Shown here one piece after another: positions 19,582 to 53,324 of a stretch of DNA of 64,000 nt; position 1 is the stretch's first letter; each line of letters starts with the position of its first letter. Position numbers and translations under genes: made by a program. The DNA comes from an uncultured Bacteroidota bacterium (GTDB lineage Bacteria; Bacteroidota; Bacteroidia; Bacteroidales; SZUA-534). The stretch lies in NCBI GenBank assembly GCA_946186925.1, contig CAMHPA010000006.1, forward strand, positions 1 to 64,000, written 5' to 3'. The notes beneath the pieces are model-generated. The model did not search any database and was not told the origin of the DNA. It saw only the letters and a program-made list of their open reading frames with translations.

Positions 19582-19627
19582 CAAAGTAACAGCGCTCTAT
19601 CTGCGTCAATCCCCATTAGTGGGGATT
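19582..19627 (-). promoter_or_regulatory. Palindromic operator copy S1 with -7-like box
   Basis: AATCCCCATTAGTGGGGATT at 19608-19627 is a perfect 8+8 bp inverted repeat. On the minus strand it is followed, after 17 bases, by TTACTTTG (19589-19582). In the other six copies the spacing is 20, so this copy is the least regular. It lies upstream of the Cys/His-rich gene. Confidence 0.6.
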
Positions 19628-19681
19628 TGCGGGGGCGTTTTTGGTTACTGCGGGGGATAAAAAGCGTACACAACCAGCCAT

Positions 19682-19728
19682 AAAAAATGCCGTCAACGAC
19701 ATAAAACAGTCATTGACAGCACTTTTTG
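19682..19728 (-). terminator. metE terminator
   Basis: On the minus strand GTGCTGTCAATGAC pairs (with a few G-T pairs) with GTCGTTGACGGCAT around an A/T-rich loop and is followed by TTTTTT. It lies 18 bases after the metE stop. Confidence 0.7.
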
Positions 19729-19745
19729 ATATTCCGCCGAAGCGG

Positions 19746-22052
19746 TTATTTCTTCTCGCCGCGCAGTTGGCGTGCGGCGGCAATCATATTGGCGATAGAA
19801 GCCTTTGTCTCGGCCCAGCCGCGGGTTTTCAGGCCGCAGTCGGGGTTCACCCACAGGCGTTCGGCGGGGATGTTGGTTTGAGCCTTGTGCATCAGCCCCA
19901 CAATCTCGTCAACCGACGGCACGCGCGCCGAGTGGATGTCGTAAACGCCAGGGCCGATGCCGTTCGGGTAACTGAAACTGCCGAACACGTTGAGCAGTTC
20001 CATCTGCGAGCGCGAGCACTCGATGGTAATCACATCGGCGTCCATTTGCGCAATGTGCTCAATAATGTCGTTGAATTCCGAGTAGCACATATGCGTGTGT
20101 ATCTGCGTTTCGTCGCTCACGCCGCTCGACGCCAGACGGAACGCCTTCACGGCCCAGTTCAGATAATCGGCCCATTCGGATTTGCGCAGCGGCAGACCTT
20201 CGCGGATGGCGGGCTCGTCAATCTGAATCACCTTGATTCCAGCGCGCTCAAGGTCAGTCACTTCGTCGCGGATAGCCAACGCAATCTGCTTTGTGGTTTC
20301 AGAGCGCGGTTGGTCGTTGCGCACAAACGACCACTGCAGAATGGTCACAGGCCCCGTCAGCATTCCCTTCATAGGCTTTTTGGTTACACTTTGCGCGAAT
20401 GTAATCCAGTCGATGGTCATTGGCGTGGGGCGCGAAACGTCGCCGAAAATGATGGGCGGCTTCACGCAGCGCGAGCCGTAACTCTGCACCCAGCCGTTCT
20501 GTGTGAACACGAATCCGTCCAACTGCTCGCCGAAATACTCAACCATATCGTTGCGCTCAAACTCGCCGTGAACCAGCACGTCGAGCCCCGCTTCTTCCTG
20601 CCAGCGGACCGCGCGGGCCGTCTCGTCCTTCAGCAGTTGGTTGTATTCCTGCGCCGACAGTTCGCCCTTGCGGAAACGGGCGCGCCACGAGCGCACTTCG
20701 GTGGTCTGCGGGAACGAGCCGATGGTTGTGGTTGGGAACAGCGGCAGGTTGAGCCGCGCCTGCTGCTTTTGGCTGCGGACGGTGTATGCGCTTTCACGAT
20801 TATAGTCTGATTCTGAAGTATTTGCGGTGCGTTCGGCCACTTTGGCGTTATGTATCAGTTTCGATGATTTGCGTGCCGCGATGTCAGCCTTGTTCTGCTG
20901 ATAGGCGGCCTGAAGACAAGTATTGGTGCGGTCGACAGCCAGAACCGACAGTGTTACAAGTTCGTCAACCTTCTGACGCGCAAACGCCAGCCAGCGCTTG
21001 ATTTCGGCGGGCAGACGCTTCTCGTCGCGTTCTAAATCAAGGTCGTACGGCACGTGCAGGAACGACGCCGACGCTGCTACCCACACACGGTCGGCGCCCA
21101 ATCGGGCCACAGCCACGTCAATCAGTTTGAACGATTGCTCGAAGTCGTTTTTCCAGATGTTGCGGCCGTCAACAACGCCCAGCGACAGGATTTTGCCCGC
21201 GGGGAAGATGTCCAGAATGCTGATGAAATCTTCAGCGCCACGCACAAAATCAATGTGGATGGCGTCGGTCGGCAGCGAGAGAGCCAGCGCCGCATTGTCG
21301 CGCAAAGCACCAAAATATGTCGTCAGCACGATTTTCAGGCTCGTCTGCCTGCGCACTTGGCCGTAAACCTTCTGATAGAGCGATTTAGCCTTCTCGTCAA
21401 GGTCTAGCACAAGGCACGGCTCGTCAATCTGAACCCATTCGGCACCAGCGTTTTCCAGCGATTTCAGTTGCTCAATAAATACGGGTAACAGTCTGTCTAT
21501 CAAGTCCAAACGCGAGAATCCCGATTCTTTTTCCTTGCCCAGAAGCAGGAACGACACAGGCCCGATGACCACGGGCTTCGTCTCAATTCCTGCCGCTTTT
21601 GCTTCGCGATACTCGTCGGCAGCCTTCGTGTCCGACAGTTTAAACGATTGATTCTTAACAAATTCAGGCACAATGTAGTGATAGTTCGTGTCGAACCATT
21701 TGGTCATTTCCATTGCAATAATGTCGTTGCCGTCGCGCTGAACGCCGTGAGCCATAGCAAAATACAACTCTAACTGATTGTCGCGCAGAGCGTTGTAGCG
21801 CTCGGGAATGGCGCCCACGGCCACCGTTTGGTCGAGCACTTGGTCGTAGAGCGAGAAATCGTTCGACGGCACAAGCGAAATGCCAGCGTTCGCCTGTAAC
21901 TTCCAGTTTTCCAATCTGATACTGCGGGCAACCGACAGCAGTTCGTCGCCCGTGATTTTACCGTTCCAATAGGCTTCTTCGGCCTTTTTCAGTTCGCGCG
22001 CCTTTCCAATCCGCGGAAAGCCGACAACATTTGTCTTTATCGATTTTTTCAT
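19746..22052 (-). CDS. metE: Cobalamin-independent methionine synthase
   Basis: 768 residues, the usual size. It moves a methyl group from 5-methyltetrahydropteroyl-triglutamate to homocysteine. The N-terminal barrel begins TNVVGFPRIGKARELKKAEEAYW. The C-terminal catalytic barrel shows the zinc ligands: His and Cys in HTHMCYSEFNDI (near residue 655), Glu in DVITIECSRSQMEL (near 680) and Cys in NPDCGLKTRGW (near 740). The ATG at 22052 is preferred over 22076, which would leave only a few bases of leader after the -7 box at 22094. It is divergent from an Lrp-type regulator. Confidence 0.95.
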   Translation of the reverse strand: MKKSIKTNVVGFPRIGKARELKKAEEAYWNGKITGDELLSVARSIRLENWKLQANAGISLVPSNDFSLYDQVLDQTVAVGAIPERYNALRDNQLELYFAMAHGVQRDGNDIIAMEMTKWFDTNYHYIVPEFVKNQSFKLSDTKAADEYREAKAAGIETKPVVIGPVSFLLLGKEKESGFSRLDLIDRLLPVFIEQLKSLENAGAEWVQIDEPCLVLDLDEKAKSLYQKVYGQVRRQTSLKIVLTTYFGALRDNAALALSLPTDAIHIDFVRGAEDFISILDIFPAGKILSLGVVDGRNIWKNDFEQSFKLIDVAVARLGADRVWVAASASFLHVPYDLDLERDEKRLPAEIKRWLAFARQKVDELVTLSVLAVDRTNTCLQAAYQQNKADIAARKSSKLIHNAKVAERTANTSESDYNRESAYTVRSQKQQARLNLPLFPTTTIGSFPQTTEVRSWRARFRKGELSAQEYNQLLKDETARAVRWQEEAGLDVLVHGEFERNDMVEYFGEQLDGFVFTQNGWVQSYGSRCVKPPIIFGDVSRPTPMTIDWITFAQSVTKKPMKGMLTGPVTILQWSFVRNDQPRSETTKQIALAIRDEVTDLERAGIKVIQIDEPAIREGLPLRKSEWADYLNWAVKAFRLASSGVSDETQIHTHMCYSEFNDIIEHIAQMDADVITIECSRSQMELLNVFGSFSYPNGIGPGVYDIHSARVPSVDEIVGLMHKAQTNIPAERLWVNPDCGLKTRGWAETKASIANMIAAARQLRGEKK

Positions 22053-22086
22053 TCCAAAAAAAGTTTTAGTGTTCATTTTCGGGCGG

Positions 22087-22118
22087 CAAAGGTGGAATGT
22101 GGAATTTTCACAAGCAAA
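22087..22118 (-). promoter_or_regulatory. metE promoter
   Basis: Minus strand: TTTG (22118-22115), a 20-base spacer and CACCTTTG (22094-22087). It overlaps head-on with the promoter of the Lrp gene. Confidence 0.65.
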
Positions 22119-22735: not shown

Positions 22736-23122
22736 TTAATCTTTTAGCCTGTGTTCCCGATAATACCCCACCGCCACTTCAACATTGCGCATTATGGCGC
22801 GGCTCGAAAATGTTGCGCCGCTCACCGCGTCAACTTCGCGGATTGAGTTGATTGACAAGCCTTTGTATTTTGGCAGCATTCGGTTTTCAATGTCGGTCAG
22901 ATATTCGGGCGTTTCAATGTTGCCAAGCATTACAACCGACTGAATAACAGTGTCTTTAATAGTTATGCTGACAGGAACAGGCCCAGCGTAGCCTTTGATT
23001 TTCTCGCCAAGTTTGACGGTGTTAATCGTGCAACTGCCGTCGGGGTTGGCGGTCATATTACGGTCTGAACACGAGCAAGTTACGGCCAGAAGCAGCAATG
23101 CCGCAAGCGGTTTGAAAAACAT
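22736..23122 (-). CDS. FMN-binding-domain lipoprotein
   Basis: 128 residues from the ATG at 23122; the longer frame to 23239 would read through repeat DNA. The start MFFKPLAALLLLAVTCSC is a lipoprotein signal. The rest is a single FMN_bind domain ending with VDAVSGATFSSRAIMRNVE: the SGAT motif (near residue 100) is the site where ApbE attaches FMN through a phosphoester bond to threonine. Such proteins pass electrons outside the inner membrane. It is the last gene of the DUF4876 / TonB / DUF6850 cluster, so it may reduce the imported metal or its carrier; that is inferred. Confidence 0.75.
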   Translation of the reverse strand: MFFKPLAALLLLAVTCSCSDRNMTANPDGSCTINTVKLGEKIKGYAGPVPVSITIKDTVIQSVVMLGNIETPEYLTDIENRMLPKYKGLSINSIREVDAVSGATFSSRAIMRNVEVAVGYYREHRLKD

Positions 23123-23134
23123 ACTCTTTTTGCT

Positions 23135-23250
23135 CAACCGATTCAACCCGTTTGTGACCGATAATTGGTTCTTTTTTAATCCGTTAGAATCGTTTAGAGA
23201 TATAAAATTATCTGTGAAAATCTGTGTTATCTGTGTCATTTGTGCGAATT
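23135..23250 (+). repeat. Interspersed intergenic repeat, copy R1
   Basis: An element seen several times in this window: CAACCGATTCAACCCG at the start, an internal A/T-rich part with TTAGAATCGTTTAG, then AAATCTGTGTTATCTGTG and TCATTTGTGCG. Copies also lie near 30.1, 35.75, 38.0 and 40.6 kb, all in the same orientation. Confidence 0.65.
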
Positions 23251-23266
23251 GTTTACGTCCTAAAAA

Positions 23267-24949
23267 TCAGAAAATTACAAACGCCGACACCGCCAACCAC
23301 CGCTCATTGTGGCAGTCGGGTTCGGGCGTAATCATTGGGCAGACCGAATTGTAGCCGATTGGTTTTGTAAATTCAGCGTCGCTAACGCGCTGACCGACAG
23401 TGTTGAAGCAATCAAGTTTCAGCCCCGCCGCGAATTTTGCCCAATGGTGCGTGTATGTGGCACTGCCCGCCAGCGCGTCGGTGTTGGCCGCGTGGTAGGC
23501 GTACGGCGCAAAACACGTCTGAAAGTCAACGTGTTGAATGGCGTTGTTCTTAATCTCAACGTCGTAATTGTTGCGCACCGCAATCTGACGGTTGTACTGA
23601 ACGGCCAAGTTGAGTTCGTGCCTCAAATTGCCCGAACGCAACCGCGCGTCAAGGCGGAAATTTGGCGTAATATTCACGTTTTCAACCAAATATTTGTATT
23701 TGGTATTTTCCTCGCGGCGGCTGTCGAGCATACAGCCCGCTTGAATGCCGAAAACAATGTTCGGCGTTGGCGCAATGCTCAATTGTACGGCATTTTTCGT
23801 GCTGACAGTCAGAAACTTATAATTCCGTTCCTCGCCAATCTTGCGGTAATCGTAAGTTGAGTTGGCGGCGTCGGTCAAATAGCGTTCCAGAATGTTCTCG
23901 CAGCCGCGTCGGCTCACAATCTGACTGAAACTGAACAGATTAAGGCTCACTTTCGGCGTTAGGGCGCAGGCAATCTCAAACGCGGGGTTGACGGTTTGCG
24001 TGCGGCTGTTGTAAAGGTTCACAATCGAACTCTCTTCGGTGTACATATATTTGTAATCGTACACCGCGTTTGCCTTGATTTTCAGCCGTTTGCCAATGGC
24101 CGACTGATACGCCACGTCGGCGCCGACGTTGTTGATGTAGAACATTCGCGACACGCCAAAAGCCACCGTGCTCTGTTTGTTGTTGTAGAGCCCGAATCCG
24201 TAGAGCACAAAGAACCTCTGCTGCTCGCCAGGGCGCCAGTAGCGGTCGTGCTCATACTGCTTGTTGCGCGTATAGTACAAGCTGACGCACAGTGAGTTAC
24301 CACCGTCAAAAACTCTGCCGCCGCCAATTTTGAACGTCAGAAAAGTGGTGTTGTTCAGCACGCGCGGGTCGGTCAGGCGGTAGGCCTGCTCGCCGTTGAA
24401 CGCAAAGTTGGCGCCCAGGTGCCAGCGGCCGAACTGCTTCGTGTAACCGCCTTCAGCACAGTAGTTTTCGAATCGGCTGTTGCCGCCCGTCGAGTCGGTG
24501 ATGGCGTACGGCAGATAGAGTTCGGGGTAGCGCATTGCGTTCCACGAGATGCCGCGGTGCCTGCCCAGCGCGTAGTGGGCCTTGCCGTAGAGCACACCCA
24601 ACTTGCCGTAATCGCTTACACCATAGCCGTTTAGCCCCCAATCGCGGCTGCTGCGGCCCTCGTATGGCAGAAAATCGCCTTCGGTTTCGCCTGTCGAGCA
24701 GAATGTCGAAACCATTGCCTGCGACAATTTCAGCGAATCGCCAAAGCGCTGTTTCTCAACCGAATAGTAGCAGGCCGATTTTTCCAGCAGGCTGCTTATC
24801 GCGGAAGCGGACGACTGAAAACGCCTGTCGAACCGTGCGGCCGACGGCGACAGACTCTCGCGTACGTGCGTAACAATCTGATTTTGAGCCGCCGCCACTT
24901 GGCAGACAGCGGTCAGCAAGGCTGCGGCCAGCAATTTATTTCGTAACAT
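23267..24949 (-). CDS. DUF6850-type outer-membrane barrel protein
   Basis: 560 residues. A signal peptide (MLRNKLLAAALLTAVCQVAAA) precedes a protein made of alternating strands with many aromatic residues, consistent with an outer-membrane beta-barrel; it ends hydrophobically (NERWLAVSAFVIF). Segments such as YEGRSSRDWGLNGYGVSDYG and ALGRHRGISWNAMRYPELYLPY match the DUF6850 family that accompanies DUF4876 proteins in Bacteroidota. The gene overlaps the TonB receptor gene by 14 bases. It may form a second pore or accessory barrel for the receptor; its substrate is unknown. Confidence 0.7.
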   Translation of the reverse strand: MLRNKLLAAALLTAVCQVAAAQNQIVTHVRESLSPSAARFDRRFQSSASAISSLLEKSACYYSVEKQRFGDSLKLSQAMVSTFCSTGETEGDFLPYEGRSSRDWGLNGYGVSDYGKLGVLYGKAHYALGRHRGISWNAMRYPELYLPYAITDSTGGNSRFENYCAEGGYTKQFGRWHLGANFAFNGEQAYRLTDPRVLNNTTFLTFKIGGGRVFDGGNSLCVSLYYTRNKQYEHDRYWRPGEQQRFFVLYGFGLYNNKQSTVAFGVSRMFYINNVGADVAYQSAIGKRLKIKANAVYDYKYMYTEESSIVNLYNSRTQTVNPAFEIACALTPKVSLNLFSFSQIVSRRGCENILERYLTDAANSTYDYRKIGEERNYKFLTVSTKNAVQLSIAPTPNIVFGIQAGCMLDSRREENTKYKYLVENVNITPNFRLDARLRSGNLRHELNLAVQYNRQIAVRNNYDVEIKNNAIQHVDFQTCFAPYAYHAANTDALAGSATYTHHWAKFAAGLKLDCFNTVGQRVSDAEFTKPIGYNSVCPMITPEPDCHNERWLAVSAFVIF

Positions 24950-27737
24950 TTTTTCCTACATTAAAAATTAGTTCCATACCGAAAAACGGATTCGTCCACT
25001 CGCGCCTTGTCCGCGCCGACGTGTTGCTAACATATTGTGGATGAACGTCGAAGATGTTGTTAACAAAGAACGACAGTTTGGTGCTGTTGAACTCTTTCGT
25101 GGCCTTGATGTTCCAGAGCATATACACGGGCTTCTCTTCTTTGGCGTAGGTGAGCGCGGTCGATTGGCGGCGCAGTTGGAACCACTCAATCTCGGCGTTC
25201 GAGTTGATTTTTTCGGCCAGTTCGGGCGTAACTTCGTGAGTATCACCGTTGAAATCGATGTAAGCGTAGGGCGTTTTCTTGTAGATGCCCTCAAATCGGT
25301 CGGTGTATTGGCTTGTCTGCGTCCAGATGAACTGAAAGAAATTGGTGAAAATCAGGCCGAAACGCGGAATGTGCGTGTTCAGCCACACGTTGGTGTTCAG
25401 GCGCGTTTTCTTGGTTTGCGCGTCCAAATCGTAGATGCCCACATACGGGTACATATTCTGCCCGATGCGGCTGTTCGGGTAGAAATAGTCGGGCAGCGAC
25501 GAGCCGTAAACCGTGTAGTAGTAAGCCCCGTTCACCTCAATGTTGGTCTCAATGGCCTTGATTTTCGGGCTCACAACCCGATACTCAATGCCACGCTTAA
25601 CCACCTTCTCGCTGTTCATTACCTTGCCGTACGAGTTGAACTCGCTGAAAGTCTGCGCGATATAGTCGTCTTTTTCAGGACGGCGGCCGCTGATGTCGGC
25701 GTCTTCTTTCAGTTGGCTGAAAAACGGATAGGTCACGGGCATATAGAACTTGAAATACTCAAAGCCCGATTCCGACCGCTCGTAGAACGCCGTGAGCGAA
25801 ATCTCAAATCCCTTGTAATCAATGTCGTAGCCTACTTCAAACTTCTTGTTTCGGTTCTCGCGGATGTCGCGGTTTGTGCCGTCGAAAATTTTGGTGTAAG
25901 TGATTAGATGTCTGTTGTTTGGATTGTTTGTGTAGGCGTTCAGCACCCAGAAATCCTTGTAGATTTTTTCGGGATAGAGATAGTCCATTGTCGGCAGTTT
26001 GTTCTCAATTCCGAACCCGAAGCGCAAAGTGTGTTTCAGCATCTCACCAATTGTGTATGAAGCATTTAGGCGTGGTTCGCACAGCAGTTTGCCGTTCAGC
26101 GCGTAGCCGCTTTCAAGATTGAACATTTGCGAGAAGCGATAGCCAAAATCCACTTTAGCCGTCTGATTTTCAGTCGGTTTCAGCGTCCACCTGCTCTGAA
26201 CGTAAGCCGCGCCCGTCTCAATGGCGGGAATGTCGTAGTTTTTGCGCGGCCGCATATACGAGTTGTCCGACGGAAACGGCGGAAGTTTCTCATTTTCAAT
26301 CACTGCGCCTTCGCCACGGTTCTTTGTCGCCGTAAAATCGGCACCATACTCAATGTTCAGGTTGAGCCGCGGCGCAATCTCAAAACGGCTGTTCAGGTTC
26401 AGTTGCGCGTAGAAATTCAGCGGAATGTTTTCGATGTAAAAGTCACTGTAATACATAGTTGGCAGGTAGTAGCCTTCGTGCTCGCCTTCGCTGTACGAGA
26501 GCGGCATACTCTTCGGGTTGCCCGTGATGACGCAGTAGTGGCGGTCAATCACGTCGCTCACGCGGCTGAACGACGCCACCAGTTCGGCCGTCTCAATCCA
26601 GGCCGCGCCCGTGTTCAGTTTCGCCTTGAGCATAAGGTCGGTTTTGTTGTAGTCGGCCTTGTAGGTCTCGTTGTACTCGTAGGTCAGTTCGTCCTTCTTC
26701 ATTTTGTTGGCCGAAATGGTCTGCGCAAGTTTGAAATCGATGTCGATGCTGCGGCTTAACCCAATGGTAATCTTATTGTTATAATACGCCTGCGCGGTGA
26801 TGCGGGTGAATTTTTCCATTTCTTCGCGGATGTCGTCGCACGAGTGCAGATAATCGGCGCCAATGTGCAGTGCGCCAGCCTTTTCGCCGAGCGAGAAGCC
26901 CTTTCCAGCGTAGAATAGTTTGTTCTTCAAATCGATTTTGGCCCTGACGCGCAGCGGCGACACGCCGTACTTCGATTTCACCTGAATCTGCCCAGCCGAG
27001 ATGTTGCCGTACTTCGACGACGAGATGCCGCGGTTCACTTCAACGCTCTGAATGTGGTCGGTGCTGATGTAGCGCATATCGGTGCCAGAGTTGATGCCCG
27101 TGCGTTCCTTCACCTGACTGTCGCCGCCGCCCGAGTAACTGTTCTGCGTGATGCCCACCATTTGCACCCGCACGCCGTCCGACGTCTGCGGCACACCGTC
27201 GGCCGTGACGCCCATTCCGAGCGACGAGTTTTGGTCCGTGCCCACCTGACGGTTGCTGTTCAGGTTGAAGCCCGTCATTGAGTTGTCGGTGTGCAGATTG
27301 CCAGGCAACAGCACAAACAGGTCGGCAATGCTCACGGGCTGAATGTACTCAATGGCCGTCTCGCCGATTTCCAACTTGTCGGCCTTGTGGCGGCGCGCCA
27401 TAACTTCAACGTCGGCAATGCGGAAGGTGGCCGTGGGCATAGTCACCGCCAGGCTCACGTCGTGGTCGGTAACGCTCACAGTCAGCACTTTATCAACCAA
27501 TCCCATTCGGCGGAAAAGGATTTTGTGCGTCCCCACAGGCACGCGCCGCAGGGTGAACCGCCCGTTCTCGTCGGCCAAAGCCGCAATCTGCAAATCTTCG
27601 ATTGCCACGGTGGCGAATCCCGCGTAGCCGTCGTCGGTTGTAATCACGCCGCCAACGTTGAAAGTGCTCTGCGCCAAAGCCGTCGTCGCAATCAACAGAC
27701 TGAAAAACAGAATTATAACGTATCTCATTTTATTCAA
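24936..27737 (-). CDS. TonB-dependent receptor with carboxypeptidase-like domain
   Basis: 933 residues. Signal peptide MNKMRYVIILFFSLLIATTALA; a carboxypeptidase-regulatory-like domain at about 27-110 (VGGVITTDDGYAGFATVAIEDLQ ... DENGRFTLRRVPVGTHKI); a plug near 130-250 (IADLFVLLPGN; STDHIQSVEVNRGISSSKYGNISAGQIQVKSK); then a large barrel ending ELIFNVGKNVTK. It lacks a SusD partner, so it is not a polysaccharide-type pair but resembles siderophore, haem or metal receptors. It sits between DUF4876 and DUF6850 genes. A hairpin at 27741-27777 ends 4 bases before its start codon. Confidence 0.88.
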   Translation of the reverse strand: MNKMRYVIILFFSLLIATTALAQSTFNVGGVITTDDGYAGFATVAIEDLQIAALADENGRFTLRRVPVGTHKILFRRMGLVDKVLTVSVTDHDVSLAVTMPTATFRIADVEVMARRHKADKLEIGETAIEYIQPVSIADLFVLLPGNLHTDNSMTGFNLNSNRQVGTDQNSSLGMGVTADGVPQTSDGVRVQMVGITQNSYSGGGDSQVKERTGINSGTDMRYISTDHIQSVEVNRGISSSKYGNISAGQIQVKSKYGVSPLRVRAKIDLKNKLFYAGKGFSLGEKAGALHIGADYLHSCDDIREEMEKFTRITAQAYYNNKITIGLSRSIDIDFKLAQTISANKMKKDELTYEYNETYKADYNKTDLMLKAKLNTGAAWIETAELVASFSRVSDVIDRHYCVITGNPKSMPLSYSEGEHEGYYLPTMYYSDFYIENIPLNFYAQLNLNSRFEIAPRLNLNIEYGADFTATKNRGEGAVIENEKLPPFPSDNSYMRPRKNYDIPAIETGAAYVQSRWTLKPTENQTAKVDFGYRFSQMFNLESGYALNGKLLCEPRLNASYTIGEMLKHTLRFGFGIENKLPTMDYLYPEKIYKDFWVLNAYTNNPNNRHLITYTKIFDGTNRDIRENRNKKFEVGYDIDYKGFEISLTAFYERSESGFEYFKFYMPVTYPFFSQLKEDADISGRRPEKDDYIAQTFSEFNSYGKVMNSEKVVKRGIEYRVVSPKIKAIETNIEVNGAYYYTVYGSSLPDYFYPNSRIGQNMYPYVGIYDLDAQTKKTRLNTNVWLNTHIPRFGLIFTNFFQFIWTQTSQYTDRFEGIYKKTPYAYIDFNGDTHEVTPELAEKINSNAEIEWFQLRRQSTALTYAKEEKPVYMLWNIKATKEFNSTKLSFFVNNIFDVHPQYVSNTSARTRREWTNPFFGMELIFNVGKNVTK

Positions 27738-27740
27738 TTA

Positions 27741-27777
27741 AAAATCCGCAGAGAGATTTCGGCCCCCCGCGGATTTT
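27741..27777 (-). terminator. Intercistronic terminator-like hairpin before the TonB receptor
   Basis: AAAATCCGC (27741-27749) and GCGGATTTT (27769-27777) make a 9-bp stem; on the minus strand it is followed by TTTTTAATTG and the receptor ATG at 27737. It could lower expression of the downstream barrel genes relative to DUF4876, or mask the ribosome site. Confidence 0.6.
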
Positions 27778-27799
27778 CCCTATCTATCTGAAAAGAACT

Positions 27800-29134
27800 T
27801 TACCTGTTTCGCCAACCTGCGGAATAGTCTGCATAATCCTTATGCGGCACCAATTGCTCGCAGTCTTCGGTCGAGTTGTTTGTGTCGGCATAGCCGTCTT
27901 TGTCGCTTCCCTTGCGTTTTACAAGAATGCCGCTGTGGCAGCCCTTCACAAGTTGTTTGCCGCGGTCAACCGTCTGCGGAAGCGGGTTTGTCACAATGTC
28001 CGACGGAATGTGGCCCGTGGTGATACCGTCGAGTATTTTGTCGGCGGCCACCGAAAGCATTTGAATTTCAACGTTATTGCCTTCCTTGTCGGCAACGGTT
28101 GCGGTTGAAGTGTTGGCCTTGAAGAAGGCGTCGAGAGCGGCCTGCGTGCCGTTTTCGAGTTTGAAAATGAACGGGCAGTAGAAGCCGCGCGGGTGCTGAT
28201 AGAAGCCGCCAATGCCGCCGTAGTCGTTTTCGGCAGGATAGATTTCCAAAACATTGGGAACTTCAGGATTGTCAACGTCGCTTGTGTAAACCTGCGGGTC
28301 GTAGATTTCAAAATCGGCGCCCGTCAGATTTATGGCGTTCTCGTAGGTGTAATCGACCCAAGTGGTGTCGTAGCGCACGTTGTCGCCGCTGCCAATGGTG
28401 TCAACCTTGTCAACGTAGCGGTTTTCGGTTGCGGTGTGGTTAATGGCCGTGAAGGCGATAACAAGTTTGTCGTGCGGCTTCACGGGCACGTCGTATCCCG
28501 AGCCTGGAATGACAATCACGCCGTGGACAGGCACCTTGCCCGCGTTGTAATACTCGTCGTACCAACTCTCTTTCTCGGTGCACGAAGCCTGCATTGTGCA
28601 ACCAACTGCCAATCCGTCGGCGTAGAGCACGTTGCTGGTCGGGTTGTAAAGCACCATATACTGGTCGGGGTGCATCATTCGGCCCGCGTTGCGCTCGCCG
28701 TTGAAGAAGATTTCAGAGAAAATAAACTGATAATCAGCCGAGTTGGCGGCCGTTGTAATCAGTTTCACGCTGATTTCGTCGTCGCCCTTGACGGTGACAT
28801 TCTCGCTGCGAAGGAAGATTGTCTTGCCTTCGGCCGATTTCTCAAGGCTGAAGTCGTAAACGCCCACTGGCAGTTTGATTGCGATTTTTCCGTTGCCGTT
28901 GGCGTCAAAATCGTTTTTGCTGACGGTGAAGGTGTAGGTGTCCTTCGATTCGGTTGCAATGGCCGTGAGCACGGCGCCGTCAATCTCATCGGCCGAAATT
29001 GAGCCCGCAACGTCGCAAATCACACTAACTGTGGCTTTTACATCGTTGTCATCGTCATCGTCGCAAGCGGTGAACATTGCGCTACCGCCTAACATCGCCA
29101 TCGCAATGGCGAAATTTAAAACTTTCTTGTTCAT
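27800..29134 (-). CDS. DUF4876-type surface lipoprotein
   Basis: 444 residues. The signal MNKKVLNFAIAMAMLGGSAMFTAC has a lipobox at Cys24 followed by six acidic residues (DDDDDN), the export signal for surface lipoproteins in Bacteroidota. An Ig-like domain follows (residues 35-125), then the DUF4876 core starting at YQFIFSEIFFNGERNAGRMMHPDQYMVLYNPT near 133. DUF4876 proteins are commonly found next to a TonB receptor and a DUF6850 barrel, as here. It likely captures the substrate at the cell surface; the ligand is not known. Confidence 0.75.
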   Translation of the reverse strand: MNKKVLNFAIAMAMLGGSAMFTACDDDDDNDVKATVSVICDVAGSISADEIDGAVLTAIATESKDTYTFTVSKNDFDANGNGKIAIKLPVGVYDFSLEKSAEGKTIFLRSENVTVKGDDEISVKLITTAANSADYQFIFSEIFFNGERNAGRMMHPDQYMVLYNPTSNVLYADGLAVGCTMQASCTEKESWYDEYYNAGKVPVHGVIVIPGSGYDVPVKPHDKLVIAFTAINHTATENRYVDKVDTIGSGDNVRYDTTWVDYTYENAINLTGADFEIYDPQVYTSDVDNPEVPNVLEIYPAENDYGGIGGFYQHPRGFYCPFIFKLENGTQAALDAFFKANTSTATVADKEGNNVEIQMLSVAADKILDGITTGHIPSDIVTNPLPQTVDRGKQLVKGCHSGILVKRKGSDKDGYADTNNSTEDCEQLVPHKDYADYSAGWRNR

Positions 29135-29269
29135 TTTGTTTAATTTTTATTGTTTAAAAGATTGATATTCAATATTTAAGTGTCGGTTTTTCCGAGAAAC
29201 CGAAGCGCAAAGAGCACCTTTAGCGCCATTTCCGTGGCACTTCAACCGATTGGTTTTCAGATAGTTTGC

Positions 29270-29932
29270 CTATTTTTCCTTGCAGCCGTCGTGACCGCCG
29301 CAGCCGTCAGTTTGTTCGGCAGCCTGCGCCATTGCTTCGGGGTCGTTTTTCTTCTTGCAGCAGTCGGCAAATTGCTCTGCTTCAAAGTAATAGTCGGGCA
29401 CAAAGTCGGTTTTGTTGTCGGCCATCCATTGCAGTTGTTCCTGCTTGTAGGCCTTCACGCTTTCGAGTTTGGCTTTCAGCGCGTCGCAGCGTTCCTGCAG
29501 CGAAGCGTCGGTTTTCAGTTTTTCGGTTGCTTCGGCAAGCGCTTCGGCCACTTTGGCTTCGTTGCTGTCCAATGTTTCTTTGGTTATCTTGTTCATTCTC
29601 AAGTAGCCTGTAATGTTGGCGTGCTGTCCCATCAGGCATTTGTTGAACTTCTCAATCTCGCCGCCAACCAAAACGCGCATCATCACGGTTGTGTCGCGCA
29701 TATCGGTGAAAGTCAGTTTCTTACCCGAGCAGCAGACGTGCGTTACGTTGGCTTTGATTCGTATTTGCTTGTCTAAAAGGAATTTTGCCGAATCTAAAAC
29801 TGTTTTTGGCGAGTAAACGCCCGCGCAGCAGTCTTTTTTGCCGTCGGCGGTTGCCTTCGACGAGTTTCCGCCACACGCGGCAAACAGCATTGTTGCCGCA
29901 ACAATTGCACTAAAAATTGTCTTTTTCATCAT
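29270..29932 (-). CDS. Cysteine-rich lipoprotein, putative metal binder
   Basis: 220 residues. Signal MMKKTIFSAIVAATMLFAAC with a lipobox at Cys20. The mature part has cysteine pairs in DCCAGVY, HVCCSGK and DCCKKK, and the tail reads TDGCGGHDGCKEK. Residues about 45-105 (LDKQIRIKANVTHVCCSGKKLTFTDM ... MRVLVGGEIEKF) look like an OB-fold of the kind found in metal or nucleic-acid binders; residues 115-180 are helical. It is directly preceded by operator copy S2 and stands at the head of the run leading to the DUF4876 cluster. Metal binding is inferred from the cysteines. Confidence 0.6.
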   Translation of the reverse strand: MMKKTIFSAIVAATMLFAACGGNSSKATADGKKDCCAGVYSPKTVLDSAKFLLDKQIRIKANVTHVCCSGKKLTFTDMRDTTVMMRVLVGGEIEKFNKCLMGQHANITGYLRMNKITKETLDSNEAKVAEALAEATEKLKTDASLQERCDALKAKLESVKAYKQEQLQWMADNKTDFVPDYYFEAEQFADCCKKKNDPEAMAQAAEQTDGCGGHDGCKEK

Positions 29933-29959: not shown

Positions 29960-30008
29960 CAAAAGTGCAGGCTACATTTTTACTGTGAAATCCCCTATTT
30001 TGGCGATT
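29960..30008 (-). promoter_or_regulatory. Operator copy S2 plus promoter of the Cys-rich lipoprotein
   Basis: AATCCCCTATTTTGGCGATT at 29989-30008 is an imperfect copy of the palindrome. On the minus strand, 20 bases separate its end from CACTTTTG (29967-29960). The lipoprotein start follows 27 bases later. Confidence 0.65.
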
Positions 30009-32571: not shown

Positions 32572-32592
32572 CTAATTTTAATACAATTATTT

Positions 32593-34336: not shown

Positions 34337-34381
34337 AGTTTCAGAAATTTTGGCGCAAAAATAGTATTTGAAGCGAAATGG

Positions 34382-38165: not shown

Positions 38166-38178
38166 TATGAGTTCTAAT

Positions 38179-47092: not shown

Positions 47093-48742
47093 TCACCCAT
47101 TCTTTCCCTCGCTAGCCTTTCCGTCTTTAATGGTGACAATCTTGTCGGCGCCAGCCACGGTACGCATTCGGTGGGCAATCACCAAAACGGTCTTGCCTTT
47201 GATAAATTTTGAAATCGACTGCTGTATAAGTGTCTCGTTTTCAACGTCGAGCGAAGCCGAAGCCTCGTCGAGCAGGATTATCGGGGCGTTTTTCAGGAAG
47301 GCGCGGGCGATTGATATGCGCTGACGCTCGCCGCCCGACAGTTTCTTGCCGTTCTCGCCAATCACCGTTTGCCACTTATCGGGCAGATTTTCAACAAATT
47401 CGGTGCAGTTGGCAAGCGCTGCGGCCTGCATCACCTGCTCGTCGGTAGCGTCTTTGTCGCCAATGCGGATATTTTCCATAACGGTATTGTTGAACAAGGT
47501 AACATCTTGGAAAACAATCGAGTAAAGATTCATCAGCGTTTCGGGGTCGATTTTTGAAATGTCTTGTCCGCCAACGGTTATGCGGCCCGAATCGACGTCC
47601 CAGAACCGCGCCGCGAGTCTTGAAACGGTTGTCTTGCCGCTGCCCGACGGGCCAATGAGCGCCGTCACCTCGCCTTGCTTTGCGGTGAACGACACGCCGT
47701 CCAAAATCTTTTTTCCGTCCTGGTAAGAGAACGTAACATTCTGAAACTCAATGTCGCCGCCGTTCACTTTGAGTTCTTCGGTGCCAGTCTGCTCTTTGTG
47801 CAGCAGAATGTCGTTGAGCCGCTCACTGTTGACATCGAGCGCGATAATGGCCGCAAAATGCTCAAGCGAAGTGAGCAGCGGGTCGTAAATGCGCGACGCT
47901 ATCAGCAGGAACAGGAAGAATTCCAGCAGACCTAACTCGCCGCTTCTCAACAACATAGCGCCTACAAGAGCCGTGGTTGCAATGCCGAATTTCAGCAGCA
48001 GTTCGGCGTTGCAGACAAAAAGCCCAGTGCCGAGTTCGTTCCAGAGCATACGTTTCTCAACCTCGTGAATTTTGGCTTTAATTTCCTTGAAATAAGGCTG
48101 TTGCGCGTTGTTTTGCCGCAGGTCGCGGACGGTTTCCAGACATTCCTGAATTTTTTCGGTCATCTCAACGGCCGCCGCGCTCTTCCGCTTGCCCAGTTTG
48201 TACTGCACCTTGCGCGAGAAAGCCACAATGAGCATACTCAGCGGCAGCACCCAAACCACCGCCAAGGCCATCTTCCAGTTAATGAAAAACAGACACACGG
48301 CCAATATGCAAGTGCTTATTATTGAGCCGATTAGTTGCGGAATAAAGTGCGACGAAGCCTGTTCAATGCTTGCCGCGTCGTCCATCAGCGTCGAAGTCAG
48401 GTCGGCGCTGTCTTTCTTGGCGAAGAACGAAAGCGGCAGTTTCCGCAGTTTCTCGGCCAGCGTCACGCGCCTGATTCCGCTTTCGCGATAAGTCGAGAAA
48501 TAGCAGGTGTTGTATTGAATCACGGTGGTGACAATCATCAGCACCAGCCAAATGCAAATGCCTGTAAGATAAAAACTTGCGCGACCAACCAGAGTCCCGC
48601 CCATAATGTCCTGAATCAGGAACCAGAGCAGAACAACAGGCGAGAACAGCGCCAGATTGTAAAACACGTTTGCCGTCGACGCAATCACCATCGACCTTGC
48701 GCCCTCGTCAGACAGGGCATATTTTTGTTTAAGAGTTGCCAT
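47093..48742 (-). CDS. ABC transporter, fused permease-ATPase, second subunit
   Basis: 549 residues: six helices in the first 300 residues (FLIQDIMGGTLVG; YLTGICIWLVLMIVTTVI; IISTCILAVCLFFINWKMALAVVWVLP) and a C-terminal ATPase with Walker A GPSGSGKTT near 355, LSGGERQR near 455, Walker B IILLDEASASLD near 475 and the His switch AHRMRTV near 510. It follows the first ABC subunit by 131 bases and the two should form a heterodimer. The gap carries short repeats (48749-48772 and 48809-48862). Substrate is discussed with the first subunit. Confidence 0.9.
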   Translation of the reverse strand: MATLKQKYALSDEGARSMVIASTANVFYNLALFSPVVLLWFLIQDIMGGTLVGRASFYLTGICIWLVLMIVTTVIQYNTCYFSTYRESGIRRVTLAEKLRKLPLSFFAKKDSADLTSTLMDDAASIEQASSHFIPQLIGSIISTCILAVCLFFINWKMALAVVWVLPLSMLIVAFSRKVQYKLGKRKSAAAVEMTEKIQECLETVRDLRQNNAQQPYFKEIKAKIHEVEKRMLWNELGTGLFVCNAELLLKFGIATTALVGAMLLRSGELGLLEFFLFLLIASRIYDPLLTSLEHFAAIIALDVNSERLNDILLHKEQTGTEELKVNGGDIEFQNVTFSYQDGKKILDGVSFTAKQGEVTALIGPSGSGKTTVSRLAARFWDVDSGRITVGGQDISKIDPETLMNLYSIVFQDVTLFNNTVMENIRIGDKDATDEQVMQAAALANCTEFVENLPDKWQTVIGENGKKLSGGERQRISIARAFLKNAPIILLDEASASLDVENETLIQQSISKFIKGKTVLVIAHRMRTVAGADKIVTIKDGKASEGKNG

Positions 48743-48748
48743 TTTTTA

Positions 48749-48862
48749 TTTAGGATTTAGGATTTAGGATTTTTTGATTATTGCACTGATTATCATAGTT
48801 TTTGACTTTAGACATCAGACTGCAGACTTAAGACTGTTGTCCGTTGTCTGTTGTCCGTAGTC
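48749..48862. repeat. Short tandem repeats between ABC genes
   Basis: TTTAGGA repeated three times (48749-48769), then a stretch with GACTGTTGTCCGTTGTC and TGTTGTCCGTAGTCC (48809-48862). The latter resembles the TTGTC repeats near 35.8 kb. Confidence 0.5.
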
Positions 48863-48873
48863 CTTTTCAATTT

Positions 48874-50655
48874 TCAATTCTCAATTTTCCATTCCACCGA
48901 TTTTTGGTATTCGTTCCACATTCGAGAGTAGATACCTTGCTGTTTTACAAGGTCTTCGTGCTTGCCGCTCTCGACAATCCGCCCTTCTTTGAACACGAAA
49001 ATCGCGTCGGCGTCAACAACGGTTGAAAGGCGGTGGGCGATTTTTATAACTGTCTTTCCTTTAGACATTTCGTTGAATGCCCGAAGCACTTTTTCCTCGT
49101 TTTCGGGGTCGGCAAAGGCGGTTGCCTCGTCCAGAATCAGAATGGGCGCGTTGCGCAGCATCACCCTCGCAATGGCAATGCGCTGCTGCTCGCCGCCGCT
49201 CAAATAGGTGCCGCGACTGCCAATGACGGTGTTCACGCCGTCGGGCAGGCGGTTGATAATGTCGGTGCATTGGGCGCGTTGCAGAACTTCAGCAACTTCG
49301 GCGTCGGTTGCCGTCGGCTTGGCCATCTTGATATTGTCTAAAATGCTCGTTTTCATTAGTTTGCTGTCTTGAAAAACAAACGACACGATTTCCGACAGCC
49401 GCGCCTGCGGAATGTTGCGCACATCGACGCCGCCAATGAGAATGCGGCCTTCGGCAACATCCCAGAACCGCGACACAAGGCTTGCCGACGTGGTTTTGCC
49501 GCCACCCGACGGCCCGACAAAGGCCACGTGTCCGCCCGACGGAATTGTCAGCGAAATGCCGTCCAGAGCGTTCCGCGCGGCATCTTTGTAACGGAATTTA
49601 ACATTCTGAAACTCAACCGAATAATCGCTTGGCGTTTGCGGATTTTCGGCATCTTTCATCTCTTCGACATCGAGCACCGAATTGATTCGCAAAAGCGAGT
49701 TCTCAACAATCATATCGGCTTCCGACGAGTGCATCAACTTGAAGAAAATCACCGCGATAACGGGCGTGAAAATGATATAGAACATCAGGTTTGAGAAAAA
49801 CTCGGGGCTTGCCGCGCCGCTGCCGTGCCAGAGCGCAACGGCCGTCAGCATTGCAAAAAACGAGTTGATTACAACGGTGTAGGCCGTCATCGGAATACGG
49901 AAACGACGGGTGTAACTAACTGAAAATATTTCGTATGTATCGATCGCCGCCTTGAGTTTCTTGAACGAGAAAACCGACTGCCCGAACGTCTTCACAACAG
50001 GAATGCCGCGCACGTACTCAACGGCTTCCTTCGTCATATTCTCGAGCGCGACGTTGTAGGCCAGAATATCGCGCTTCAGCGACGGCCCCACCATAAAACC
50101 GTACATTATGAGAAAGGCGACCACAATGGTTGCAATGCACAGAAGGCCGATTCGCCAGTCGAAATACATCAGCAGGGCAATCATCGCCACGGGCGTCACC
50201 ATTCCCACGGTGCGGTCGGGCAGAATGTGTTCCAGGTAGTTGCTCATTGCGTCGGTTGAGTCGATAATGATTTTGCGGATTTTGCCGCTGCCTTCGGTCT
50301 CAATGTGTCCGAGCGGCATCCGAAGCACCTTGGCCACGCAGCGCTCGCGAATGTTGGCCACCGTGCGGAACGCCCCAAGGTGCGAGCAGGCCAGCGCGCA
50401 AAAATAGACGCACATTGCGTTGACCGCATACTTGACGGCCGTAAAGCCGTAATCTTCAATGTTTTCCGCTTTCGCGAAATCGGGCGCCACACTCAGCACT
50501 TCGTTCACGATTTTCCAAATGTAAACGAACGGCACCAGTCCCAGGCACGCGCTCGCCGCCGACAGCACAATGGCCCCAACGGTGAAATACTTGAACCGAC
50601 CTGCGTTGTCCATCAGCGTGAGCAGGTTCGGTCGCTTTTTTGTTTTGTTATCCAT
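48874..50655 (-). CDS. ABC transporter, fused permease-ATPase, siderophore-importer-like
   Basis: 593 residues with six helices and an ATPase: Walker A GPSGGGKTT near 382, LSGGEQQR near 482, Walker B ILILDEATAFADPENE near 503 and AHRLST near 540. The sequence DEATAFADPENE after Walker B is characteristic of the IrtAB/YbtPQ group, exporter-fold proteins that import iron-siderophores. Import of a siderophore, haem or related compound is therefore plausible but not proven. Preceded by operator S6 and an attenuator-like hairpin only 57 bases before the start. Confidence 0.88.
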   Translation of the reverse strand: MDNKTKKRPNLLTLMDNAGRFKYFTVGAIVLSAASACLGLVPFVYIWKIVNEVLSVAPDFAKAENIEDYGFTAVKYAVNAMCVYFCALACSHLGAFRTVANIRERCVAKVLRMPLGHIETEGSGKIRKIIIDSTDAMSNYLEHILPDRTVGMVTPVAMIALLMYFDWRIGLLCIATIVVAFLIMYGFMVGPSLKRDILAYNVALENMTKEAVEYVRGIPVVKTFGQSVFSFKKLKAAIDTYEIFSVSYTRRFRIPMTAYTVVINSFFAMLTAVALWHGSGAASPEFFSNLMFYIIFTPVIAVIFFKLMHSSEADMIVENSLLRINSVLDVEEMKDAENPQTPSDYSVEFQNVKFRYKDAARNALDGISLTIPSGGHVAFVGPSGGGKTTSASLVSRFWDVAEGRILIGGVDVRNIPQARLSEIVSFVFQDSKLMKTSILDNIKMAKPTATDAEVAEVLQRAQCTDIINRLPDGVNTVIGSRGTYLSGGEQQRIAIARVMLRNAPILILDEATAFADPENEEKVLRAFNEMSKGKTVIKIAHRLSTVVDADAIFVFKEGRIVESGKHEDLVKQQGIYSRMWNEYQKSVEWKIEN

Positions 50656-50792: not shown

Positions 50793-50867
50793 TGAACGCT
50801 GTACGTTTTTAAATGCTGCAAAAATCAGCCGAAAACGCATATCGGTCAATCCCAATTTGTGGGGATT
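50793..50867 (-). promoter_or_regulatory. Operator copy S6 plus promoter of the ABC operon
   Basis: AATCCCAATTTGTGGGGATT (50848-50867); ATTG (50850-50847), 20 bases, GATTTTTG (50826-50819), 13 bases, CGTACAGCGTTCA (50805-50793). The rest of the 311-base gap holds the leader hairpin and, next to the upstream gene, nothing I recognise. Confidence 0.8.
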
Positions 50868-50966: not shown

Positions 50967-51926
50967 TTACACACTAATATCTGCTTTGTTTTCAGGCATA
51001 TGCCGCCTGATTCCGTCCCAGGTTGGCATTGGCGAGCCACGGTGCTGACGCCGCCATTCGTCGAATTTTTGGTCGATATAAATCATCTCTTCAATGCCGT
51101 TTTTGCAGTGGTCCGAAACCATCAATCGGCCCAGAACAGTTTTCGACATCAGTCTGTATAACAGAAACATAGCGTATGTCCGCAGACCGCCGTTGTAGAA
51201 TCGGTCTTCGCCTTTCGGCATAACGCTCACGCCCGCGCTTTTCAGGTAGGCGAAGCACTCTTTCGACGCCTGCATAATAAACTCAATGTCGCGGCGGGTG
51301 AGTTGCTTCAAGTTGCAGCCGCACTTGTAGCACATATAGCCGTAGGGCATCACTTCGGCAACGTGGCACAGGTAGTAGGCCTGCATATCACCGATTGGCG
51401 TCACTTTGTAGTCTTTGATACTGAATGCTTTACGTATTGCATCGATTGCCCAGTCGGGTGCGGGTTGGTGCAGACCGCCGACAAAAAGTTCGGTGACGGG
51501 CAGCCTTCCGACAACCGCCTTTCCGCCTTCGCGGTGCCCAGCCGAGTTCTGAAAGCCGAAAAGCAGCTGCAAATTGTTGCGTTCGGCCAGAATGCGGTTT
51601 TGGCAATGGTCGGCTTCAAGATTATTGCCTACAAGCACCAAAAGATTGGTTTTCAAACCGATAAACGCATCTAACAACGCCTTCTGCTGTTGCCCCTGCA
51701 TCACTGAAAAAACAATGTCGAACTGCTCGCCAACGGGTGCGCTCTCAACAATTTTGGGGTGGTCAATGGTGGTTTTGCGTTGCAGATAGTGCCTGACAAT
51801 CAATCCATTGCGACGCAACTCGTCGGCAGTTGAGCGGGCCACCACCGTCACGTCGTTGCCAGCCTTACACAAATAGTGAATCATCAGCGAGCCCAACGCG
51901 CCCGAACCATAAACTAAAATCTTCAT
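50967..51926 (-). CDS. Ketopantoate reductase-like (ApbA/PanE) oxidoreductase
   Basis: 319 residues from the ATG at 51926, where MKILVYGSGALGSLMIHYL forms the Rossmann NAD(P)-binding motif GxGxxG. The ApbA-like layout continues with VTVVARSTADELRRNGLIV and DIVFSVMQGQQQKALLDAF near 75; the C-terminal helical domain is present, but the usual catalytic KxxxN motif is hard to place. It may act on a compound other than ketopantoate. It starts 11 bases after the adjacent methyltransferase gene and is in the S7-controlled run. Confidence 0.75.
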   Translation of the reverse strand: MKILVYGSGALGSLMIHYLCKAGNDVTVVARSTADELRRNGLIVRHYLQRKTTIDHPKIVESAPVGEQFDIVFSVMQGQQQKALLDAFIGLKTNLLVLVGNNLEADHCQNRILAERNNLQLLFGFQNSAGHREGGKAVVGRLPVTELFVGGLHQPAPDWAIDAIRKAFSIKDYKVTPIGDMQAYYLCHVAEVMPYGYMCYKCGCNLKQLTRRDIEFIMQASKECFAYLKSAGVSVMPKGEDRFYNGGLRTYAMFLLYRLMSKTVLGRLMVSDHCKNGIEEMIYIDQKFDEWRRQHRGSPMPTWDGIRRHMPENKADISV

Positions 51927-51937
51927 AATCAGTAGGT

Positions 51938-52744
51938 TTACCAAACTAAAGTTGCCCAGCGGTCGTTGATATTGGGCAGTAGAAGAGCGAAAAGTTTGGC
52001 GCGCAGCGAGTGCTTCCGCATCTCTTCGTTGAAACTGTGCTCTTCGGCGACGCGGATTCCAGGGCAGAGGGGCTCAAGTTCGCGGGCCGAGTTGGTTCCG
52101 CTCTTGAAAACGGCGTTGGTCTTGCTCACCGTGTCGTGATATTTTTGCTTCTTCACCATCATCGGGCAGTTCTGCTCGGCCATCAGTATGCCGTGTTCGA
52201 AGTTGTTTTTCAGCAAGTTGAGCAGTGTGCCGATTTCGTCCATCGTCAGGTACATAAAGAGCCCTTCGGCAATGAACATCAGCGGCGCGCTTTTCGCGGA
52301 AGCGGCATTTTTGACCAGTTCTATCCAACTGTTTTCCAGAATGTTGGCCGCAACCATTGTGACGCGCTCGCGCTCGGGAAACGCCTTCCGACGGGCGGCA
52401 ATCAGGTCGGGCAAATCAATGTCGAACCAAGTGATACGGCCGTTGTCGACGCGCTCGAAACGGTTGTCGAAAACCGCGCCCAGATTGACAATGACGGCGT
52501 CGGGGTTGGCGGCCACAAATTCGCGCACCGTACGGTCGAGCATCACCGTGCGCGCAATCACGCCTTCGCGCGACAGAAACTTGTCGAACTGACGTGTGTC
52601 CACGTTCAGGTGCTTGACAATCTCAACCGCCATCGGGTCCTTCACGCGCGGATTTTTCGAGAGCGTCTCGTTCGCCTTTATGGCGACAGGAATCAGCGCT
52701 GTGGTCTCAACGTCGCCAAGTTTCAGAGTGATTATATTTTTCAT
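51938..52744 (-). CDS. PPM/leucine-carboxyl-type O-methyltransferase
   Basis: 268 residues of the LCM/PPM family of SAM-dependent O-methyltransferases (Tcmp-like). The start LKLGDVETTALIPVAIKANE, the SAM motif VIVNLGAVFDNRFERVDN near residues 84-101, ITWFDIDLPDLIAARRKAF near 103 and the conserved APLMFIAEGLFMYLTMDEI near 160 are all typical. In relatives the enzymes methylate carboxylates of peptides, polyketides or similar. The substrate is unknown. With the downstream ketopantoate reductase-like gene it looks like a two-step modification pathway under operator S7. Confidence 0.85.
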   Translation of the reverse strand: MKNIITLKLGDVETTALIPVAIKANETLSKNPRVKDPMAVEIVKHLNVDTRQFDKFLSREGVIARTVMLDRTVREFVAANPDAVIVNLGAVFDNRFERVDNGRITWFDIDLPDLIAARRKAFPERERVTMVAANILENSWIELVKNAASAKSAPLMFIAEGLFMYLTMDEIGTLLNLLKNNFEHGILMAEQNCPMMVKKQKYHDTVSKTNAVFKSGTNSARELEPLCPGIRVAEEHSFNEEMRKHSLRAKLFALLLPNINDRWATLVW

Positions 52745-52771
52745 ATTATCAGCATTTTAGATTTTGTGAGA

Positions 52772-52804
52772 AAAGCCGAACATCCACTTCAGGCGTTCGG
52801 CTTT
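52772..52804 (-). terminator. Hairpin after the small membrane protein gene
   Basis: AAAGCCGAAC (52772-52781) and GTTCGGCTTT (52795-52804), a 10-bp perfect stem, followed by TTCTC on the minus strand. It would reduce transcription into the methyltransferase gene 27 bases on. Confidence 0.7.
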
Positions 52805-52857
52805 CGGAAACAATGAGAAAAAGTTTATCTTTTTGTAAATGACTATGGTTCTTTGTT

Positions 52858-53247
52858 TTATATTTTTTCTTCTTTTCTGATTTTCAGCGACTCGCGCGCC
52901 AGCAGAATTGCCACAACGGCCATCAGCGGCATAATCAGAAGTTGCGCGGGATTGAACTCGTCAATGAGTTCCGACATATGCAGCACCGTGAAGGCCGCCA
53001 TAATGCAGGCCAGCACCACGTTGACTGCCAGGCATTTGCGTCCGCCGAACATCACAAGCAGAACGCCCACGGCGGGCACCGTGTAGGTAAGCAGCATCAT
53101 AAACGAAATCATCCCCACCGAAGCGGGCGGTGTCATAGCGGCAATGCTCTCGCCCCAAAAGGCAGGCATTGCGTCGGTTAGCGAGTGCGCCAGGAATCCC
53201 GCAAGGGTGAGCGTCCACAGCGCGACGATTTTAGTTTTTCTTTCCAT
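52858..53247 (-). CDS. Small four-helix membrane protein
   Basis: 129 residues from the ATG at 53247, which follows the S7 promoter by 29 bases; the longer frame to 53415 reads through operator and repeat DNA. Four membrane helices are visible (IVALWTLTLAGFLAHSLT; GMISFMMLLTYTVPAVGVLLVMFG; LAVNVVLACIMAAFTVLHM; LLIMPLMAVVAILLA). No family recognised. As the first gene behind operator S7 it is probably part of the same response as the ABC and MMPL transporters. Confidence 0.55.
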   Translation of the reverse strand: MERKTKIVALWTLTLAGFLAHSLTDAMPAFWGESIAAMTPPASVGMISFMMLLTYTVPAVGVLLVMFGGRKCLAVNVVLACIMAAFTVLHMSELIDEFNPAQLLIMPLMAVVAILLARESLKIRKEEKI

Positions 53248-53275
53248 TTTGCTAGATTTTAGAATTATTATGCCG

Positions 53276-53324
53276 CAAAGTAACGGCGGCTTGTCGGCTG
53301 CGTCAATCGCCATTTGTAATGAAA
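53276..53324 (-). promoter_or_regulatory. Operator copy S7 plus promoter of the small membrane protein
   Basis: One good half-site (AATCGCCA, 53305-53312) with a degenerate second half up to 53324. ATTG (53307-53304), 20 bases, TTACTTTG (53283-53276). The exact 20-base spacing supports function despite the weak half. Confidence 0.55.

Follow-up and report, generated by a model that had tools for sequence, protein, structure and literature searches.

Palindromic operators merged with promoters of iron-related genes in Bacteroidales are predicted sites of an iron-starvation activator, with CdhR as the candidate

The window analysed here is a stretch of 64,000 nucleotides from an uncultured bacterium of the Bacteroidales lineage SZUA-534 (assembly GCA_946186925.1, contig CAMHPA010000006.1, positions 1 to 64,000). 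It carries seven copies (S1 to S7) of a 20-bp palindromic operator, each placed before a -7-like promoter box. A first-pass annotation had read these copies as one envelope/metal regulon, with a TetR-family protein encoded among the targets as the preferred candidate regulator. The operators, boxes and target genes are as follows.

16891-19416, minus strand: 113-residue small protein without a family match, and a TonB-dependent receptor whose best NCBIfam matches are ZnuD/haem receptors, below cut-off
19582-19589, minus strand: S1 -7-like box TTACTTTG, offset 18 nt
19608-19627, minus strand: operator S1 (AATCCCCACTAATGGGGATT), before the 113-residue protein and the ZnuD-like TonB receptor
22736-29932, minus strand: Cys-rich lipoprotein (29270-29932), then DUF4876, TonB receptor, DUF6850 and FMN-binding genes, all on the same strand
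29960-29967, minus strand: S2 -7-like box CACTTTTG
29989-30008, minus strand: operator S2, 2 mismatches
30237-30256, plus strand: operator S3, 1 mismatch
30278-30285, plus strand: S3 -7 box TAATTTTG
30310-32898, plus strand: TonB-dependent receptor and HMA-domain protein
35828-40533, minus strand: MMPL transporter, LolA-like protein and DUF1302 protein
40860-40867, minus strand: S4 -7-like box GATTTTTG
40889-40908, minus strand: operator S4, 1 mismatch
41938-42552, minus strand: TetR-family regulator (204 residues), an operator target
42582-42589, minus strand: S5 -7-like box GATTTTTG
42611-42630, minus strand: operator S5, 1 mismatch
47093-50655, minus strand: ABC transporter pair, each a fused permease and ATPase
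50819-50826, minus strand: S6 -7-like box GATTTTTG
50848-50867, minus strand: operator S6, 1 mismatch
50967-53247, minus strand: 129-residue membrane protein, LCM-type methyltransferase and ApbA-like reductase
53276-53283, minus strand: S7 -7-like box TTACTTTG
53305-53324, minus strand: operator S7, distal half degenerate

The palindromes S1 to S6 were borne out at these positions, with 0, 2, 1, 1, 1 and 1 mismatches to AATCCCCANNNNTGGGGATT, respectively. The window contained six matches to this pattern, compared with a mean of 0.18 and a largest count of 2 in shuffled sequence; six was reached in 0 of 100 shuffles. S7 was half-degenerate, as first noted, and kept the promoter-proximal half alone in the window; the same promoter has an operator with 1 mismatch in four congeners (G003 L095:8109, G004 L098:3547, G008 L106:8800 and G006 L113:14250). 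The 3.32-Mb genome held eight matches at no more than 2 mismatches, six of them inside the window stretch, and at no more than 3 mismatches 19 matches versus one for the reversed pattern. The proposed promoter spacing was likewise recovered: in S2 to S7 the -7-like box begins 21 nt past the palindrome, equal to 20 nt past its ATTG/ATTT end, and the S1 box lies at 18 nt. S3 points to the plus strand and all other sites to the minus strand. The tetR gene starts with an ATG at 42552, and the first gene past S7 begins at 53247. We infer that the genes at 22736-29932 form one transcript; in the relative G206 a site directly precedes the TonB/DUF4876 genes.

Within the genus of the window organism, 10 of 11 genomes had at least one match within 2 mismatches. 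Further targets in the genus, for which one representative each was checked, were a ZIP transporter, a TonB plug protein, a Trep_Strep membrane protein and a CcsA/ResB protein. An SO_0444-type Cu/Zn permease with an HMA domain (over the NCBIfam cut-off) was also a target, as was a 430-residue porin-like protein that matched no family. An extra half-site, TATCCCC, was conserved about 33 bp (three helical turns) upstream of the palindrome, only in this genus, and is perhaps a second dimer site. Flanking sequences were swapped among congeners at the operators (window 19608 and 50848; L101:9196, L104:11668 and L107:11254), as if whole operons exchange: the S1 position in G004 is occupied by the operator of a ZIP-hemerythrin-CdhR operon, and the S6 upstream flank in G008 precedes a different promoter. 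Site-specific recombination at the palindromes, raised by these shuffled flanks, was set aside; homologous exchange would suffice since promoter stretches are shared, and regulation explains the -7-box register and the family spread.

The operator was not confined to this locus. Of 295 genomes from the order, 53, spread over many families, had an exact match to the relaxed pattern AATMCCYANNNNTRGGKATT, compared with 1 of 295 for the reversed control, and the idea of a private seven-site regulon was rejected. The first-pass annotation had suggested scanning related Bacteroidales for the palindrome near TAnnTTTG, and when this was done the register recurred at 20-21 nt. Among 68 distant sites, the best box was a perfect TAnnTTTG in 35, at an offset of 21 in 28, of 20 in five and elsewhere in two. 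In 77% of the box-bearing offset-21 sites the next base is G, so that the palindrome continues directly into the TTG belonging to the -33 element. Of 69 distinct sites within 1 mismatch (80 loci), 48 had a box scoring 5/6 or better on one side and seven on both sides; 14 had neither, and these 14 gave no target. Distant targets were identified from N-termini, with one FeoAB and one flavodoxin confirmed by Pfam. The operator stood before feoAB in nine genomes (L141, L174, L188, L195, L200, L201, L337, L344 and L352), before flavodoxin in five and before a CobN-type chelatase in G105. Other distant targets were TonB receptors, TetR/ABC/MMPL operons and a hemerythrin plus LuxR-type pair, as well as enolase and others. 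G292 had five copies of AATCCCCAAATTTGGGTATT (L189 and four more contigs), probably a repeat element; the one inspected was without a -7 box. Literature searches found no description of this operator, and a CdhR site may have been published elsewhere. Of the regulon as first proposed, its unity, the merging of operator and promoter, and the envelope/metal targets held up; its restriction to these genes and its control by TetR did not.

The TetR protein had been put forward as an autoregulated repressor that reads the palindrome, blocks RNA polymerase and leaves the site in response to a metal or haem signal. Palindromes of 8-4-8 layout are suited to the TetR family, and the tetR gene itself carries the operator and hence is a target. 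Within the genus, operator matches numbered 5-9 in the six genomes with a TetR orthologue versus 0-4 in the five without. A site within 2 mismatches was found in the 200 bp upstream of 62 of 80 named tetR loci and was missing from 18, compared with 0.1% of 1467 random windows drawn from these loci, although the 80 are not independent: about 45 of them are nearly the same sequence, sharing at least 81% identity with the query. At tetR loci from other families, 10 of 23 had a palindrome no more than 4 mismatches from the window form just upstream of tetR. TetR was also enriched with the operator (12 of 53 operator-bearing versus 9 of 242 other genomes). However, this TetR was missing (E<=1e-10) from 41 of the 53 exact-operator genomes, including those with operators at feoAB promoters (G144, G242) and G006. 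When the DNA-binding domain alone was searched at E<=1e-4, no TetR match was found in 6 of 40 of the 41 TetR-less operator genomes and in 6 of 40 other genomes. Additionally, the TetR helix VGLSNIYNYY was identical in the window and G275 despite differing operators. Since the operator is retained without it, TetR was rejected as sole regulator, and we consider its repressor role at these sites unlikely; it perhaps has a secondary, local modulating role. The fixed -7-box register is at least as well suited to an activator as to a polymerase-blocking repressor. TetR proteins 81-100% identical were found across Bacteroidales families (L223-L263), many of them with strain or sample names that point to chicken gut, which suggests that the TetR/ABC module may recently have moved by horizontal transfer.

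The targets and their counterparts pointed to iron, one of the signals first suspected. By gene content rather than trees, counterparts of the window operons are reported to be some of the most strongly induced genes when iron is depleted in Porphyromonas gingivalis, Prevotella intermedia and Bacteroides thetaiotaomicron (PMC10434189). In P. gingivalis, PG1175-81 rose 13-136-fold, PG1019-22 21-215-fold and PG1236-37 about 7-fold, and feoB merely about 2-fold; in B. thetaiotaomicron, BT0507-09 rose 51-676-fold and BT0519-20 16-20-fold (PMC10434189). This iron stimulon comprises the same classes as the operator targets (TetR/ABC/MMPL, DUF4876/TonB, flavodoxin, hemerythrin/CdhR and hmu). It differs in being an RNA-seq description, and the terms motif, palindrom and promoter have no occurrence in the main text of the paper (PMC10434189). 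In one P. gingivalis mutant, cdhR, hmu, PG_1019-20 and PG_1178/1180/1181 are reported to rise together (PMC10101095). Iron is accordingly supported as the likely signal by the iron-related targets and their iron-induced counterparts, as far as these are reported.

Putatively iron-responsive operators at promoters recall the Fur box, and the palindrome might be a non-canonical version of it that a Fur-family protein reads, repressing the promoters when iron is plentiful. The Fur family was present in 37 of the 40 genomes tested, and P. gingivalis Fur is reported to shift the hmu promoter and not an E. coli Fur box, its loss raising HmuY (PMC6613475). However, sequence and geometry differ from those of the Fur box, and so strict a register is uncommon among repressors. 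No Fur-family match was found in the other three genomes (G105, G141 and G144, each of which carries an exact operator), though a divergent Fur could escape the search, and the window genus has one divergent Fur member only. P. gingivalis Fur is stated not to control the global iron genes (PMC6613475), and pir1/pir2 of Bacteroides fragilis are reported to be iron-regulated without FurA. We regard Fur as an improbable reader. Rrf2 (25 of 40 genomes) and DtxR (15 of 40 at 1e-3, two of 40 over cut-off) were too patchy and were rejected as general regulators.

The best candidate was the CdhR-like protein of LuxR/NarL type (CdhR below), encoded beside a di-iron hemerythrin in operons that the operator heads. 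In the genus, searched without G001, G005, G007 and G010, the CdhR operon was operator-headed in six of seven readable genomes: as ZIP-hemerythrin-CdhR in G002, G004, G006, G008 and G009, and as porin...hemerythrin-CdhR-CcsA in G003, where the operator has 3 mismatches. The window's own genome (G000 C41) has an operon of the G003 type whose head runs off the contig. G006 had no TetR match, though its operon is operator-headed. Outside the genus, G144 (1.5 Mb, 99% complete) carries a perfect operator and box, then feoAB and, 0.7 kb further on in the same orientation, a CdhR-like gene; searches of this genome for TetR, Fur, Rrf2 and DtxR gave no match.

The CdhR profile (A2) was built from six genes taken from beside sites or from fetched loci. 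Since LuxR-type paralogues abound, its matches at 1e-12 extend to 282 of 295 genomes. At E<1e-25, CdhR was found in 47 of 53 operator-bearing versus 145 of 242 other genomes, and after removal of the six profile genomes in 42 of 48 versus 144 of 241. Among the sites and CdhR matches listed, 10 of 71 sites lay no more than 6 kb from a CdhR gene; once the profile genomes were removed, 4 of 63 did, versus 0.2 expected. Of the 30 best-scoring CdhR loci, 24 gave an upstream reading (the other six being L409, L412, L415, L417, L419 and L426), and 13 of these had an upstream site within 2 mismatches; outside the profile genomes the figure was 7 of 18.

PF00196, the C-terminal GerE domain, was present in all four CdhR-like proteins scanned, and CdhR matched VraR over its full length and NarL in the DNA-binding domain, with DevR among the structure matches. 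At the phospho-Asp column, 50 distinct CdhR sequences had Asn (47), Asp (one, G144), Ser (one) or Glu (one). The hemerythrins kept all six metal ligands (four His and two Glu) in 51 of 51 distinct sequences. The DevR/DosR box of mycobacteria, which is read by a NarL-family regulator, is likewise a 20-bp palindrome at the -35 element; its sequence, signal and partner all differ.

Written as heptamers, the distant operator is TACCTAT-NN-ATAGGTA. NarL of E. coli is reported to read TACYYMT in 7-2-7 pairs and to activate napF and yeaR from sites near -40 to -49. With CdhR as the reader, the two systems would have in common a DNA-binding domain of the LuxR type, a pair of inverted heptamers with a 2-bp gap and a position for activation just upstream of -35. 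Unlike CdhR, which has Asn in place of Asp in 47 of 50 sequences and a hemerythrin neighbour, NarL is phosphorylated by a kinase; the window-genus half-sites also differ in being TCCC, not TACY. Of the 152 half-sites from other genera, 94 read TACYYM and 45 TACYYMT. The identity of operator base 4 varied with one residue of the recognition helix, HTVI[S/T]HR, which we take to line up with the base-contacting Val189 of NarL: base 4 was C in 108 of 128 half-sites with Ser and in 30 of 98 with Thr. When the genus was entered as a single case, this covariation had p=0.0016, a value not otherwise corrected for kinship. Its sample comprised box-bearing sites only, palindromes with boxes on both sides were counted twice, and the helices were collected by profile search. 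Ser-type CdhR outside the genus went with C in 18 of 28 half-sites.

A centre near -42.5 also fits class II sites of the Crp/Fnr family, and another widespread regulator of this type could read the palindrome. The regulator PgRsp is reported to shift the hmu promoter of P. gingivalis, and six operator-bearing genomes were without a close CdhR match. In a pgrsp mutant, however, hmuY is reported to be little changed, and Rrf2 and DtxR were too patchy for the part, as noted above; we hold this explanation to be quite unlikely.

On balance, we think it somewhat probable that the palindromes are the sites of an order-wide iron-starvation activator, with CdhR as the candidate. A CdhR acting as a class II activator, with hemerythrin as a sensor replacing the kinase, would be the most economical reader. 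Several observations weigh against this. Co-occurrence alone cannot choose the regulator, because the TetR association is equally strong. In six operator genomes CdhR had no close match (G053, G149, G227, G242, G276 and G292); four of these are less than 90% complete, and in G276 and G242 the operator precedes feoAB. Of the 18 best-scoring CdhR loci read outside the profile genomes, 11 were without an upstream site at no more than 2 mismatches. The CdhR of G144 keeps the Asp at the phospho column. Inside the genus the NarL heptamer was found in 0 of 66 half-sites, the fourth operator base being C, and in G141, which has Ser, C was found in 0 of 4. The Ser/Thr residue was picked after inspection, with relatedness uncorrected. 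B. fragilis feoAB is reported to be Fur-dependent (PMC5552952, PMC6460266), which also speaks for Fur. Although CdhR is described as activating hmu transcription, this effect is said to contrast with that on other iron genes (PMC10101095), and one paper calls CdhR a repressor. P. gingivalis CdhR (PG1237) is of the same protein class, with hemerythrin (PG1236) alongside and reported regulation of hmuYR; its descriptions, in the portions available, mention no operator, order-wide regulon or hemerythrin role.

With CdhR as the activator, the protein would bind the palindrome as a 7-2-7 dimer with an estimated centre near -42.5. It would sit just upstream of RNA polymerase, and the promoters would turn on when iron falls. 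The di-iron site of hemerythrin may replace phosphorylation as the sensor: iron-loaded hemerythrin would hold CdhR off and the apo form would release it. The hemerythrin-CdhR pair would drive its own operon, and TetR would be one regulated target, perhaps a local modulator. The fuller proposal is tentative and about evenly poised. It holds that hemerythrin and a non-phosphorylatable NarL-type CdhR may form the master iron-starvation switch of Bacteroidales, self-driving and doing the job of Fur by activation at -33-merged operators, and that the window genus may have re-specified TACC to TCCC with a Thr to Ser change in the recognition helix.

Other features of the window lay between the targets. 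An HEPN/nucleotidyltransferase (MNT) pair, likely a toxin-antitoxin module, was located at 40947-41722, with the MMPL operon on one side and tetR on the other; of the relatives fetched, G009 alone shows it. The stretch 34032-35793 had no recognisable gene, and pieces of it recur beside sites in several congeners. An open reading frame at 34277-35260 resembled a repeated gene but matches no family.

Bacteroidales are one of the major bacterial orders of the gut and mouth, and knowledge of the regulatory mechanisms is called "scarce" in the iron-stimulon paper (PMC10434189). With an operator defined by its sequence, and with a regulator and a sensor named as candidates, how these bacteria sense iron can be tested directly. 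If the proposal is true, a hemerythrin-based sensor of the activation type would join the Fur, DtxR and Rrf2 repertoire, and iron-responsive promoters would become available for engineering gut bacteria. The order-wide operator points to a candidate control system for iron scavenging in many Bacteroidales families, one that is likely switched on at iron shortage.

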